Positions 1 through 5,182 of a DNA stretch of 64,000 nt are shown here, piece after piece. The stretch is from Pseudomonadota bacterium (lineage in GTDB: Bacteria; Pseudomonadota; Gammaproteobacteria; QQUJ01). Numbering within the stretch: the stretch's first letter is position 1; the number at the start of each line of letters is the position of its first letter. The notes beneath the pieces were generated by a model that worked only from the letters and a program-made list of their open reading frames with translations, made no database searches and was not told the origin of the DNA. Location: NCBI GenBank assembly GCA_008501635.1, contig QQUJ01000007.1:1-64000 (forward strand), in the 5' to 3' direction. Made by a program: the position numbers and the translations under genes.

Positions 1-338
1 TCCAGCAGATGACGAAAATTGAGAATCGTCGTCTCGTCGGGAACCGGCTCACGCCCAAGGTCAATGCCGGCGAAAAGACACATGGAGCGAGATTCATACA
101 ACGCTTCCTCGGCGCCTGGATCCGACAGGTTGAACCAGTGTTGGAGGAAGTAGATGCGCAACATCCGTTCCAGTTCAATGGGTGGGCGCCCGTTTCCCGC
201 TTTGGGGTAGTGGGGTTCGATGAGCTCACAAAGCTGATCCCATGGAACCACAGCATCCATCTCCGAGAGAAATTTCTCTCGCCGGGTTGGTTTTCGAAAT
301 TGCTCAAATTCCCCCGCGGCAAACGTTTGCTGCTTCAT
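1..338 (-). CDS. IS5-family transposase, N-terminal part, cut by window edge
   Basis: Transposase of an IS5-type (DDE) insertion sequence, read on the minus strand from an ATG at 338 and running off the window at base 1. The 112 visible residues begin MKQQTFAAGEFEQFRKPTRR and include PWDQLCELIEPHYPKAGNGRPP and LERMLRIYFLQHWFNLSDPG, followed by DLGREPVPDETTILNFRHLLE. This is the well-known N-terminal region (DUF772-type) of IS5-group transposases. The catalytic DDE core lies outside the window. A plausible element end is at 403, next to a TTAG that fits the YTAR target preference of this group. Whether the full element is intact cannot be judged here. Confidence 0.9.
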   Translation of the reverse strand, partial: MKQQTFAAGEFEQFRKPTRREKFLSEMDAVVPWDQLCELIEPHYPKAGNGRPPIELERMLRIYFLQHWFNLSDPGAEEALYESRSMCLFAGIDLGREPVPDETTILNFRHLL

Positions 339-385
339 CGTTTTCTACCGGTTCCAAATAATGCGTGTATTGTCGCAAACTTTGG

Positions 386-403
386 GACTTAATCAGAGAT
401 GCC
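386..403 (-). repeat. Probable terminal inverted repeat of the IS5-type element
   Basis: Read outward-in on the minus strand from 403, the sequence GGCATCTCTGATTAAGTC is a likely IS end. It lies 48 bp upstream of the transposase start, and the flanking TTAG at 404-407 matches a YTAR 4-bp target. The other terminus is outside the window, so the inverted repeat itself is not confirmed. Confidence 0.5.
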
Positions 404-418
404 TTAGTCTGTCACCTT
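404..418 (+). repeat. Left copy of a 15-bp direct repeat flanking the HerA/NurA/methyltransferase cassette
   Basis: TTAGTCTGTCACCTT here matches TTAATCTGTCACCTT at 4813-4827 in the same orientation at 14 of 15 positions. The three-gene cassette lies exactly between them. The IS5-type element abuts this copy at its TTAG. Confidence 0.55.
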
Positions 419-448: not shown

Positions 449-2500
449 TCAAATCAAACGTATCCATGTCTTGCCAGTCCCCTCGTTTTTGAAAGTCTCC
501 CAATACTGCCCTTGGGGGCCAAAAGCCTCATCCATGGCATGTTTAACCTCTCTATAGGCCAAGTCACTGGCATCTTGTGTGATTCCTTCGGGGATACACT
601 CTTCAACAATTTTATTCATGGCACCCCACGGCATCCCGTCTGATTTGAGTTTTTCTCTGATTGACTGATCGTTTTGCAGCCGCTCAACAGCTCGCATGTG
701 AAAAACCTTCAGTGGGTCAATCTCACCTGTTTCTGGATCGGGTACTACGTCATGGGTTTTCTTGATTCCAGAGGCAAAAGTATTCCCAGCAGGCATGTTG
801 TAGTCATGGTCAATCATCGAGAATTTGTTCTCGAACGAGAGTACTCGTACACCAACCGGGTAGGGCTTCTTGGTGGCTGAACTCCAGAACACACCTTGAC
901 CAGGGATTGGCTCGTTCAGCAGACCGCTCAAGATGTCTGAACTGAAGTGCGCGTTGGCGCTCTTAATATTTTGAAGATCACTGGCAGACAGCAGGTGGAA
1001 CACGAACCAGTTGTCGCCCTGACTCAAAATCTCGTTAGGAATGCTTCCGGGTTGTTGGGTAATGAGCACCGCTCCAAGATCGTATTTTCGCCCCTCCTTC
1101 ACCCATTCAATATAGGGGCCGGAACCCGATGCGCGTTCATTCAAAACGCTTTGAGCCTCTTCCACAACAGCTATCGTTGGAATAGTTTTCGGGTTGGCAT
1201 CCGTGAACTGTTCTTGGTTGTGGTCGAATATTTTCCGAAGGAGGATGCCACTGAGAATCAGCCCCTGATTCCCGCGCATTTGCGACACGTCAATCACGCA
1301 GAGCTTTCCAGCGCTCAGTGAATCCAAAAGCTTGTCTAACAGGGTGCTGCTTGGGTCATGCAGCATACGCACAATGTTGGTCATGTGACTTCGGGCAGCG
1401 ATTGCCTCTACAGACCCTTCTTGAACATGTATAATCGCGGCGATCTCATTCTCGTCAGCACGATTCCCATCGCGGTAGATCAGGTCGACCAGTCTGGACC
1501 AGCCATCCATAGGGAGACCGCGTAACTTTACAACGTTCTGCTGATCTTGCTTCTCTGGGCTTATCGCAATTGAGATCACATCGCCTGGGCGCAAGCGTCG
1601 AATATCCAAGCGGATTCCGCCCGCAACAAACGACTGATAGAACGCACTTGAGTTGTGGCGGTTCGTGAAGACAACCAGTTCGTCTTCCAGGTGAGGAACA
1701 TCGCACAGACCAGGGCGTCCTTTATCGTCTGGCCAGAAGTATTCACCATCGGGATCGAACAGCAGTGTGCCAACAGGCACTTGAACACCCTTGCGTTTCT
1801 CAACAGTAGGCGTCTCTCTATAAAGCTCCGAAAACAGCAGTTTGTTGAGGTTTGATTTTCCGAAGCCTGCTCGGGCAAAGATAAAAGAACGACGAGAGAC
1901 GAGATGATGGATCGGGAATTTAACCATCACCTCGGGTTCTTTTATCTGCATCCCAGGCTCCACCGAAGCATAGGGGCTATCACCGCAGTAGACATACTCG
2001 CCCAATGCAAAGTGGCCGATAGGCTCTGCCTGCTGGTTGTGTCCGACGATCTCTCTGAGGACTTCATCATCCAGAAAGGCTACCGGGCTACCCACGTGGG
2101 GAAGTCGGCGGTGTGAGGGCAGGAAGTGCAGCGCCGTTTCGTTTTGGCGAAGGACCCCGAGTACGCGAATGTCGACCTTGTACTTTAAGTATTTTTCTCT
2201 CAGATCCTCTGGGACAGGGCGCTCCTCCTGCATGGCTCGGACGTTGAATTCCTCTCCAACACCACTGGAAAGCTTGCCTGCTGATGAGAGCGAGGTGATT
2301 CTGCCAAGGACCGCCTCATCGTCGGATTCAAGCTGCACAAGAAGGAATTGCCCATGCATTGGGATGCTCTGAAAATCAGACCGGTATGGCAGAACCAAGT
2401 CGGCATGGAACTCTAAGCCGCCTTCCGAGAACCCTCTGAATACACCGATGATTTGATGTCGGGGAAAGAGTTTGAATGCCGCCACTATTTTTTTCTCCAT
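449..2500 (-). CDS. HerA-like ATPase of a putative defence cassette
   Basis: Predicted hexameric HerA/FtsK-superfamily pump ATPase, 683 aa, probably acting on DNA with the adjacent NurA-like nuclease. An N-terminal beta-rich region (about residues 1-190) precedes the motor. Walker A is ARAGFGKSN near residues 209-217, a FDPDGEYFW segment typical of HerA lies near 248-256, Walker B is TIAVVEEAQ near 442-450 with two Glu, and a GRKYDLGAVLITQQP segment near 470-484 carries the likely arginine finger and sensor. The ATG at 2500 overlaps the nuclease stop by one base, so the genes are probably translationally coupled. The region is AT-richer than the rest of the window. HerA family assignment is firm; a defence role is inferred from the neighbours. 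Confidence 0.88.
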   Translation of the reverse strand: MEKKIVAAFKLFPRHQIIGVFRGFSEGGLEFHADLVLPYRSDFQSIPMHGQFLLVQLESDDEAVLGRITSLSSAGKLSSGVGEEFNVRAMQEERPVPEDLREKYLKYKVDIRVLGVLRQNETALHFLPSHRRLPHVGSPVAFLDDEVLREIVGHNQQAEPIGHFALGEYVYCGDSPYASVEPGMQIKEPEVMVKFPIHHLVSRRSFIFARAGFGKSNLNKLLFSELYRETPTVEKRKGVQVPVGTLLFDPDGEYFWPDDKGRPGLCDVPHLEDELVVFTNRHNSSAFYQSFVAGGIRLDIRRLRPGDVISIAISPEKQDQQNVVKLRGLPMDGWSRLVDLIYRDGNRADENEIAAIIHVQEGSVEAIAARSHMTNIVRMLHDPSSTLLDKLLDSLSAGKLCVIDVSQMRGNQGLILSGILLRKIFDHNQEQFTDANPKTIPTIAVVEEAQSVLNERASGSGPYIEWVKEGRKYDLGAVLITQQPGSIPNEILSQGDNWFVFHLLSASDLQNIKSANAHFSSDILSGLLNEPIPGQGVFWSSATKKPYPVGVRVLSFENKFSMIDHDYNMPAGNTFASGIKKTHDVVPDPETGEIDPLKVFHMRAVERLQNDQSIREKLKSDGMPWGAMNKIVEECIPEGITQDASDLAYREVKHAMDEAFGPQGQYWETFKNEGTGKTWIRLI

Positions 2501-3639
2501 TAATACCGGCGTTGCGCAGGATCAGCATCCTGGAACCGAGCAATATCCAATACTTTGCTGTTCTCTCCGAGCAGCTTACGGATGCCATCAAAAATCTCGT
2601 CTTGTAGTACGTCGAAGTCAAAATCAACCAGAGCCGCATTCTCGTGCGCCCTTTGCAGGCAGAGCGGATAAAAAGGCACGGGAAAACCGTTTTCCGCATC
2701 TGCCAGTAGGTATCCCATCGTCGCGTGGGCTTCTTTCACCTGGGGAACGAAGATGTCTACTGGCCATACCGAGTCGTGTGAACTCTTCCCGAACTTCACG
2801 AAGAACATCTTCCCACCGACGAATTTGTTAACCTCTTGGCCGTCGAAGTTCATGTCGTCGCCGCGTGCGTACTCTTGCCATGCGTAGGCTTTGCCCTCGA
2901 TGTCCCTCGGAATCTCGACATAGCAGGGGTATGGCGAGTTCATGACGCTCTCGAGTTGCATGGCGAGCCTGTAACGGGAGAGCACCTTGCTGTGTTTCGC
3001 GAGTCCCACAAGATAGATGCGACGGCGAGTTTTTTTCCTGTGCTCCTCAATGGCCTCTTCAATACCACTGAGTAAGCGTCGGAAATACTCGCCAGAAAAT
3101 ATTTTGCTCCGCAGTAAGCCATCGAAGACGACCAATGTGTCAGAGCCGAACTCTTTTGTACGGATGATCTTGAAGAGAATTGCCCACTCGATGATCTCAC
3201 GATACACCTGAACCCAACTCGGGTTAGCAATGTCCTTGCCTTCGTTCAGCTTGATCATTGGACTAAGCTTGTGAAGGCTATCCACGCCCAGAAAATCCAT
3301 CAGCTCACCGAGAGCTGAAATGGCTTTACCGCCGTCAAGGTGCCGGGTATTCAACTCCCGAATTTTTGAAGAGGTCGAAACGGCTTCGAGGCAGTATTCG
3401 TTGTTACTGGAGTCAACGACCCGAATGAGCTGAATCAGGAACGGGTCGTATTCAATCTTGTTGTTACCCCCGTCAGTACCAACGAGGGAAATCGAGGTGG
3501 CCGTCCTCGGCTGGATACGACGAACTTGGTCTCGAAGCGGGCGGACTTCATATCGAATGTCGTCCAGAAGGCCGCGGTCCTCCATTATTCGTCTTGAAAT
3601 CTCTTCACTGAGTTTCTTGTGGCTCTCTGGGTCAATCAT
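2500..3639 (-). CDS. NurA-like 5'-3' nuclease
   Basis: A 379-residue protein with the layout of NurA-domain nucleases, which pair with HerA ATPases in DNA-end processing and in several defence loci. The first metal-binding motif is SLVGTDGGNNKIEYDP near residues 51-66 (Asp56). A second acidic motif is TLVVFDGLLRSK near 168-179 (Asp173), and the VGLAKHSKVLSRY segment near 211-223 matches the conserved K-x-S motif of NurA. The ATG at 3639 overlaps the methyltransferase stop by four bases and its stop overlaps the HerA start by one. This is the tight coupling expected for subunits of one machine. Family call is from motifs; divergent from classical archaeal NurA. Confidence 0.8.
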   Translation of the reverse strand: MIDPESHKKLSEEISRRIMEDRGLLDDIRYEVRPLRDQVRRIQPRTATSISLVGTDGGNNKIEYDPFLIQLIRVVDSSNNEYCLEAVSTSSKIRELNTRHLDGGKAISALGELMDFLGVDSLHKLSPMIKLNEGKDIANPSWVQVYREIIEWAILFKIIRTKEFGSDTLVVFDGLLRSKIFSGEYFRRLLSGIEEAIEEHRKKTRRRIYLVGLAKHSKVLSRYRLAMQLESVMNSPYPCYVEIPRDIEGKAYAWQEYARGDDMNFDGQEVNKFVGGKMFFVKFGKSSHDSVWPVDIFVPQVKEAHATMGYLLADAENGFPVPFYPLCLQRAHENAALVDFDFDVLQDEIFDGIRKLLGENSKVLDIARFQDADPAQRRY

Positions 3640-4778
3640 TGCGCACGTAACCTAATGAAATAGTCCTTTTCTTCGATGGCAGTTGTTTTTGTTCTACTGC
3701 CCATCACATCGGCTTGTCTTCTCCCTCTAGATGCATTTCCTGCATTGCGACTATAGTAGATATACCAATCACCAGCTGATTGCTCTATGGAGTTACGAAA
3801 AATCTGGTCGTAGTCTGCTTTGCGTGACGCCAAGCCGCCAAAGCGGATAACCATGCGAACATCATCGGAGGCTTTATTATAAATATTGTCCCAGACGACT
3901 GATAACGATTCAGCAAAGCCCTTTGGGGAGAGGTGATCGACTTGCCCAGTGGCTTCGTAGGCAATAGTTTCAGGGCCACCAATTAACCAATGACGGAGCC
4001 ATTGATCCTGAACATAGGTGCGCATACCGTAGTAAGGTGGCGACGAAATCACCAAATCAATGGGCTGTTGGATATCTCTATACCCAGCGTAATCACGACT
4101 ATCCACACATCGGATATTGTTGACGCTGGAATGTCCTTCGATAGCGTGACCAAGCACTAATCCCACCTTCTTTCTGATCGGGATTCGTACATCGACAAAT
4201 CGCGGATTCATCCCTCGCTGTTTCCAGTACCTGATCGAGTATTCGGGCTTGGAGGCGAAAGTGCGCGGCATTTGATTGGAAAAATAAGAGGGGTTGCCTA
4301 AGTCCTTCGTTAGTGGGCCATGCAGACACCCCATCAGAATGGCACGTAGCATGATCGATGCATCGGTTTCCGGTAGCGCCATCAGCCCCTCACGAAGTTT
4401 GCACAGATCCTGCAAGGTTTCTGGGTGAAACGCCCATTCCCAAAACTCGCCTTGAGGCACTGCACTGCGATGTTCTTCCTCAAGCAAGCGCCCCATTAAA
4501 GAGAGGACTTCAGTAGGGTCTGTGACGGCGAGTTTAGCCTTTGCGATGGCAACCGCTATAGGAGAAGAATCGTGGCCATATGAAGCGATCCCAAGAGTCT
4601 GAGCAGCATAGTTTGTCGTGCCCCTGCCGCAGAATGGATCAAACACAACAGTGTCTTGAGATGCTTGCTTGAGGATAGTCAGCGGGAATTCGAGCGGAAA
4701 CATGGTGTAATACGGACACACCGCATTCAGCTTGTACTGTGGCCCCCTGGAAAGACTCCTTGCCGCACCGCCGCCCAC
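3636..4778 (-). CDS. DNA amino-methyltransferase (N4-cytosine or N6-adenine type)
   Basis: SAM-dependent DNA methyltransferase of 380 aa. The SAM-binding motif I is VVFDPFCGRGTT near residues 44-55, preceded by a motif-X-like segment (CPYYTMFPLEFP). The catalytic motif IV, DLVISSPPYYGM, is near 241-252. About 190 residues lie between motifs I and IV, room for a target-recognition region, which suggests an alpha-like motif order. SPPY is the form common in N4-cytosine enzymes, although N6-adenine cannot be excluded. The GTG start at 4778 is supported by a GAGGAG ribosome-binding site about 7 bases upstream. It is the first gene of the three-gene operon with the NurA- and HerA-like genes and would mark self DNA if the system restricts foreign DNA. 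Confidence 0.88.
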   Translation of the reverse strand: MGGGAARSLSRGPQYKLNAVCPYYTMFPLEFPLTILKQASQDTVVFDPFCGRGTTNYAAQTLGIASYGHDSSPIAVAIAKAKLAVTDPTEVLSLMGRLLEEEHRSAVPQGEFWEWAFHPETLQDLCKLREGLMALPETDASIMLRAILMGCLHGPLTKDLGNPSYFSNQMPRTFASKPEYSIRYWKQRGMNPRFVDVRIPIRKKVGLVLGHAIEGHSSVNNIRCVDSRDYAGYRDIQQPIDLVISSPPYYGMRTYVQDQWLRHWLIGGPETIAYEATGQVDHLSPKGFAESLSVVWDNIYNKASDDVRMVIRFGGLASRKADYDQIFRNSIEQSAGDWYIYYSRNAGNASRGRRQADVMGSRTKTTAIEEKDYFIRLRAQ

Positions 4779-4812
4779 TATTGCTCCTCGTTATTTGCTG
4801 TTTTCAAAAAAA

Positions 4813-4894: not shown

Positions 4895-5182
4895 TCACCC
4901 CAAACACTCTTGCTGCTCAATCTCTTTGTTTTCGCTACCGATGATCGCGAATGTTTTGACTTCGCCTTCTGCATGGTCTTTTAGAAAACTCAGGTTCTCA
5001 TCAACAAAGTCTTTATTGCAAACACGGATATCCAAGGAGTGGGACTGGATGTCACCTTGATTGAGCGATCCGTTTTCTGTCGTGACCGTGAAATCCGGGC
5101 CGCGATAATTATCCGGGAGGTTTCCGGTTTCACGATCAATGGGGTCAGAGTCATTGATTTCATTAACCCTTGAGAACCGGCG
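4895..5182 (-). pseudogene. 5'-truncated remnant of an unidentified gene, in frame after the universal stress protein stop
   Basis: An open frame of 95 codons ending in TGA at 4895-4897 has no usable start near its upstream end. It begins directly after, and in frame with, the TGA of the stress-protein gene at 5183. The peptide has normal acidic, globular composition (for example NEINDSDPIDRETGNL and DFVDENLSFLKDHAEGE) and ends NKEIEQQECLG. It therefore looks like the C-terminal end of a real gene whose 5' part was lost when the accessory segment joined this locus. The family is not recognised. Its base composition resembles the defence cassette downstream, so it may once have been part of the same module. 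Confidence 0.5.

Follow-up and report, generated by a model that had tools for sequence, protein, structure and literature searches.

A methyltransferase-NurA-HerA cassette as a probable restriction-modification-type system and candidate methylation-based relative of Tdp

The 64,000-nucleotide stretch of Gammaproteobacterial DNA analysed here (the window; contig QQUJ01000007.1, positions 1 to 64,000) carries three overlapping genes that probably constitute a restriction-modification-type system against invaders, with base methylation rather than phosphorothioation as the mark of self. From our comparisons, we would class the trio as a relative of Tdp that is based on methylation. The restriction-like reading put forward in an earlier note on this DNA is supported by co-occurrence of the genes across phyla, by neighbourhoods rich in defence genes, and by the lack of a PADLOC model for the NurA nuclease.

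All three genes lie on the minus strand in the order methyltransferase, NurA, HerA, with overlaps of 4 and 1 bases, an arrangement already described in the earlier note and borne out by the ORF positions and Pfam matches. The amino-methyltransferase ORF (4778-3636; 380 aa; Pfam N6_N4_Mtase 2e-10) has a GTG start behind an AGGAG ribosome-binding site, read directly on the minus strand at 4784..4788, and is followed by genes for a TdpB-like nuclease of the NurA family (3639-2500; 379 aa; Pfam NurA 1.8e-4) and a TdpA-like translocase of the HerA/FtsK family (2500-449; 683 aa; DUF87 5e-17). The operon has a GC content of 50-51% compared with 58-67% in most of the window, in agreement with the AT-richer DNA noted before. 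The nearest relative (L002; 74.5% DNA similarity) resembles the window only at positions 489-4789; since this likeness stops with the three genes themselves, we regard the cassette as the unit. The previous description of the surroundings as IS-bounded holds on the left side, where an IS element fragment with a DUF772 transposase (1..406, minus strand; approximately 19 copies in the genome) lies at the contig end, but no IS element was found to the right of the operon. On that side, upstream of the operon, a weak AAA_13-type gene remnant without an in-frame start codon (4895..5182, minus strand; PF13166 4.2e-7, with 29.5 bits against a Pfam cut-off of 36 bits and so below it) precedes a universal stress protein gene. 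The AAA_13 family takes in RloC/PrrC-type anticodon nucleases. Many contigs of this genome, including that of the window, terminate in the DUF772 IS.

Judging by its sequence, the first gene encodes a DNA amino-methyltransferase, with N4-cytosine or N6-adenine as the probable target. Both of the motifs reported previously, FDPFCGRGTT and SSPPYYGM, are found in the protein; motif I precedes motif IV with a helical insert between them at residues ~86-215, D47, C50, G51, G53, T54 and S246-P-P-Y249 are invariant in 29/29 relatives, and the AlphaFold model has a pLDDT of 84. The second protein scored just above the cut-off of the Pfam NurA model (21.5 versus 21 bits), and its assignment was settled by profiles of its relatives together with alignment of its AlphaFold model (pLDDT 67). 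TdpB was the sole PDB match in the profile search, and the model aligned with TdpB at a Z of 18.7 over 296 residues (1.2e-9 by Foldseek), as compared with 11.0 for archaeal NurA and 8.2 for Deinococcus NurA; D56, E81, E85, D173, Y324 and H332 are invariant in 41/41 relatives. For HerA, the best profile match was likewise TdpA (9.1e-25, versus 2.5e-15 for archaeal HerA), and with Walker A residues G212-G214-K215-S216, E447/E448 and R471 invariant in 36/36 relatives, the protein is predicted to be a TdpA-like hexameric DNA translocase. Catalytic positions are thereby conserved in all three proteins. The nearest solved relatives of both HerA and NurA are therefore TdpA and TdpB (PDB 8wet, 8wfd) and not the HerA-NurA pair of DNA repair.

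An et al. 2025 reportedly found that the TdpAB ring translocates along and degrades DNA lacking the phosphorothioates made by TdpC. Their paper (doi 10.1038/s41589-024-01832-w) is cited by PMC13251355 and PMC12345140. The likeness to Tdp extends to the HerA-type ring, the NurA-type nuclease, and the presence of a modification gene that completes the trio; the cassette contains a TdpA-like HerA and a TdpB-like NurA but not TdpC, its third gene being an N6_N4_Mtase methyltransferase rather than a phosphorothioation enzyme. In addition, the HerA of the window is longer at the C terminus by ~100 residues, and sequence similarity to TdpA and TdpB is distant. Taking the logic reported for TdpABC and replacing TdpC with the methyltransferase, we infer a scheme in which methylation would be the self signal: the methyltransferase would mark host DNA at a fixed target, HerA would form a hexameric ring with NurA docked to it and feed duplex DNA into the nuclease, and this HerA-NurA complex would translocate and degrade unmarked DNA and be held off by marked DNA. 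No sequence-recognition subunit is evident in the cassette.

For the distribution of these genes, we scanned one genome per species and counted loci by NurA relative, which yielded 55 loci with relatives of 55-91% identity in Pseudomonadota, Chloroflexota, Cyanobacteriota, Bacteroidota, Acidobacteriota, Verrucomicrobiota, and other phyla. An intact methyltransferase of the family accompanies 35 of the 42 loci with complete NurA and HerA (32 in the same locus and 3 elsewhere in the genome), most commonly in the order NurA-HerA-methyltransferase. In an even sample of the class, NurA was found in 3 of 370 Gammaproteobacteria genomes, and the same 3 were the genomes with the methyltransferase (0/367 others). 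Modification and nuclease genes are thus linked and co-occurring, as restriction-modification requires, and the search for three-gene synteny suggested in the earlier note returned a strong association that crosses phyla (35/42 loci; 3/3 genomes). Across loci, we found no conserved neighbour beyond the trio.

These counts also bear on the idea that NurA and HerA repair DNA double-strand breaks by end resection, with the methyltransferase being incidental. The same two protein families, with the same expected ring-plus-nuclease architecture, resect DNA ends in archaea and Deinococcus (PMC9960219). We nonetheless consider repair very unlikely for the cassette: TdpA and TdpB are far closer than any repair HerA or NurA (Z of 18.7 for TdpB versus 8-11), the repair pairs have no methyltransferase as opposed to the strict co-occurrence seen here, and instead of the linkage to mre11-rad50 and the broad vertical occurrence expected of a repair pair, we observed no recurrent mre11-rad50 neighbour and a sporadic, patchy occurrence (3/370 Gammaproteobacteria and 2/297 Acidobacteriota genomes).

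The trio is a transferable cassette that moves between distant bacteria. No copy was found on PLSDB plasmids or INPHARED phages; in one IMG/VR phage contig (L103), the whole trio is flanked by a GpA-type terminase gene on one side and a Mu-like capsid gene on the other, which indicates that a phage is able to carry the complete cassette as cargo. In Acidobacteriota, a divergent NurA-HerA pair (L126:4753-9199) immediately follows a DruA (Druantia) gene, and no related methyltransferase was found on that stretch.

The most serious rival to restriction is a role in DNA transfer, since a published Thermus operon with the same components is required for donating DNA. The ICEth1 operon of Thermus thermophilus comprises a type IIG enzyme, NurA (377 aa), TdtA (HerA), and a PF01555 methylase; deletion of NurA cuts transfer by 4-5 orders of magnitude, TdtA is required in donors, and loss of the methylase has a minor effect (PMC5365140, PMC7767461). 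As published, its order of NurA, HerA (TdtA), and methylase is also the commonest among our loci, although ICEth1 differs in having an upstream type IIG restriction enzyme, an excising element, and a function in DNA donation. By analogy, HerA in the cassette could export DNA that NurA processes, with the methyltransferase as an accessory. We judge this improbable, because the operon in the window has the three genes alone, no integrase, attachment site, or type IIG gene recurs among the neighbours, nothing beyond the trio is conserved, and an accessory gene need not show the strict co-occurrence that the methyltransferase displays in an unbiased sample.

The neighbours are instead defence genes. 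At a threshold of 1e-20, 73 genes near 13 cassettes matched 73 PADLOC families, in comparison to 9, mostly generic, for 73 control genes drawn from these contigs at distances of ~30 kb or more, a ratio that serves as a guide only because PADLOC models are redundant. The enrichment in defence islands that the earlier note had proposed checking is therefore present relative to matched controls. The matches include BREX PglX and BrxC, type III and type I enzymes, Mza, GajB-like helicases, and TmtA; in some loci, BREX pglX, brxC, and brxHI-like genes adjoin the cassette, with brxHI-like genes beside NurA-HerA in L023, L037, and L040.

The earlier remark that the module matches no named system that could be placed with certainty stands to the extent that no PADLOC model matched NurA, but it overlooked the precedents of Tdp and Thermus ICEth1. 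In the open-licence literature searched, we met no name for the trio, although one may exist. Among other systems, HerA-SIR2, HerA-DUF4297, and the DndH-type HerA/FtsK capture systems also combine a HerA-family motor with an effector in defence, but with other effectors, no methyltransferase, and weaker HerA similarity. Methyltransferase, HerA, and NurA genes lie in a row on the Deferribacter desulfuricans megaplasmid pDF308 (L110:5950-12423), where they are very divergent (methyltransferase 28%) and HerA is split by an IS200/IS605 (TnpB/TnpA) insertion.

Looking at the loci that lack the methyltransferase, we found a broken NurA or HerA in 5 of the 12 that could be assessed and have no intact methyltransferase, versus 0 of 35 with one (Fisher 5e-4), some of these breaks being possible assembly errors. 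By comparison, seven intact NurA-HerA pairs (L009, L035, L040, L041, L043, L044, L045), come from genomes in which no related methyltransferase was found, that of L044 being assembled to chromosome level, and these weaken a strict restriction reading. The six placed on the tree occupy scattered tips, and their terminal branches are longer (p 0.0015), which may reflect a changed function; a different kind of methyltransferase may also serve such pairs, and L040 has one two genes away from NurA-HerA. Their scattered positions led us to reject an ancient separate clade of methyltransferase-less loci. Sacsin-NOV (TmtA-like) or DUF3223 genes were likewise dismissed as methyltransferase substitutes, as L008, L018, and L022 have a methyltransferase elsewhere in the genome.

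Methyltransferases are exchanged more freely than their partners. Evolutionary distances correlate at 0.97 between NurA and HerA versus 0.66 between NurA and the methyltransferase, the latter rising to 0.92 upon removal of five loci with an upstream or inverted methyltransferase, all of which carry methyltransferases of a different lineage. Loci L026 and L030 share 88% identity with L012 in NurA but 45% in the methyltransferase. The clade of L008, L018, L022, and L030 has no methyltransferase following HerA; a methyltransferase of the other lineage, elsewhere the partner of a ~1420-residue SF1 helicase, occurs in each of these genomes. Methyltransferases have thus been replaced by relatives belonging to other defence modules, with NurA-HerA unchanged. 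The window's own methyltransferase, located upstream of NurA, falls outside the main 3′-linked lineage in the methyltransferase tree, on which the partner label switches 11 times, with at least 7 of the switches forced by supported branches. That NurA-HerA has repeatedly acquired methyltransferases of one kind but of different origin suggests that the pair probably depends on the mark and not on precise protein contact.

HerA ends in a C-terminal extension (residues ~565-683; 449..808, minus strand), a fast-evolving block of about 120-140 residues that lies outside the TdpA alignment and had no confident match in Pfam or PDB. Its mean identity is 39% versus 80% for the core, and in L014 and L034, cores that are 99% identical carry extensions of 41% identity; by these alignments, the extension is exchanged as a block between near-identical cores. 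We rejected it as a partner of methyltransferase specificity, given that L030 and L034 have extensions 80% identical with methyltransferases at 43%, and L012 and L016 show the reverse. Its variation does not follow that of the methyltransferase, so it probably does not read the mark, and a role as an invader sensor or an adaptation against inhibitors is possible.

This independence, the seven intact pairs without a related methyltransferase, and the divergent Acidobacteriota copy beside the DruA gene could also be explained if NurA-HerA defends without a methylation licence, sensing a phage feature such as DNA ends, with the methyltransferase serving another purpose or a partner system. That explanation is unlikely in light of the recurrent re-acquisition of the same methyltransferase family and of the damage to NurA-HerA, which is confined to loci where the methyltransferase is missing or broken.

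The same methyltransferase family has further partners. It is found, usually convergent, with the ~1420-residue SF1 helicase (AAA_11/AAA_12; DpdJ- and Mokosh-like by PADLOC) in viral contigs L088-L096 and L099 and plasmids L106 and L108, an apparent second restriction pair. As a third partner type, a GmrSD_N (DUF262) gene plus one more gene follow the methyltransferase in L098:4794-8350 and L100:4102-7628, the gene beyond GmrSD_N in L098 encoding a HEPN-type protein. Across all partner types, the helical insert between motifs I and IV retains 23 nearly invariant positions, consistent with one shared methyltransferase target. A bolder formulation, which we offer tentatively and hold to be doubtful as a whole, is a widespread, unnamed class of restriction based on a sequence-independent ring translocase-nuclease licensed by methylation that is read during translocation; the mark would come from a fixed-target methyltransferase interchangeable among NurA-HerA, the SF1 helicase, and GmrSD plus HEPN, and HerA would swap its C-terminal domain to match invaders.

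If methylation does license the cassette, Tdp-type restriction by a ring translocase and NurA nuclease is not bound to phosphorothioation, and its machinery also works with ordinary base methylation, thinly spread over many phyla. Several unrelated effectors would then share a self mark provided by one methyltransferase family, and the three genes would offer a simple model in which to ask how chemical marks are read by a translocating nuclease.

In several viral contigs, the methyltransferase and SF1 helicase adjoin phage tail or lysis genes. An interpretation of the phage methyltransferases as orphan anti-restriction genes was dropped, as most of the 17 viral contigs with the methyltransferase pair it with another effector. 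In viral contig L097 (7332-9077), only a C-terminal fragment of HerA lies ahead of an intact methyltransferase, an arrangement suggestive of a system that lost restriction but retained modification.
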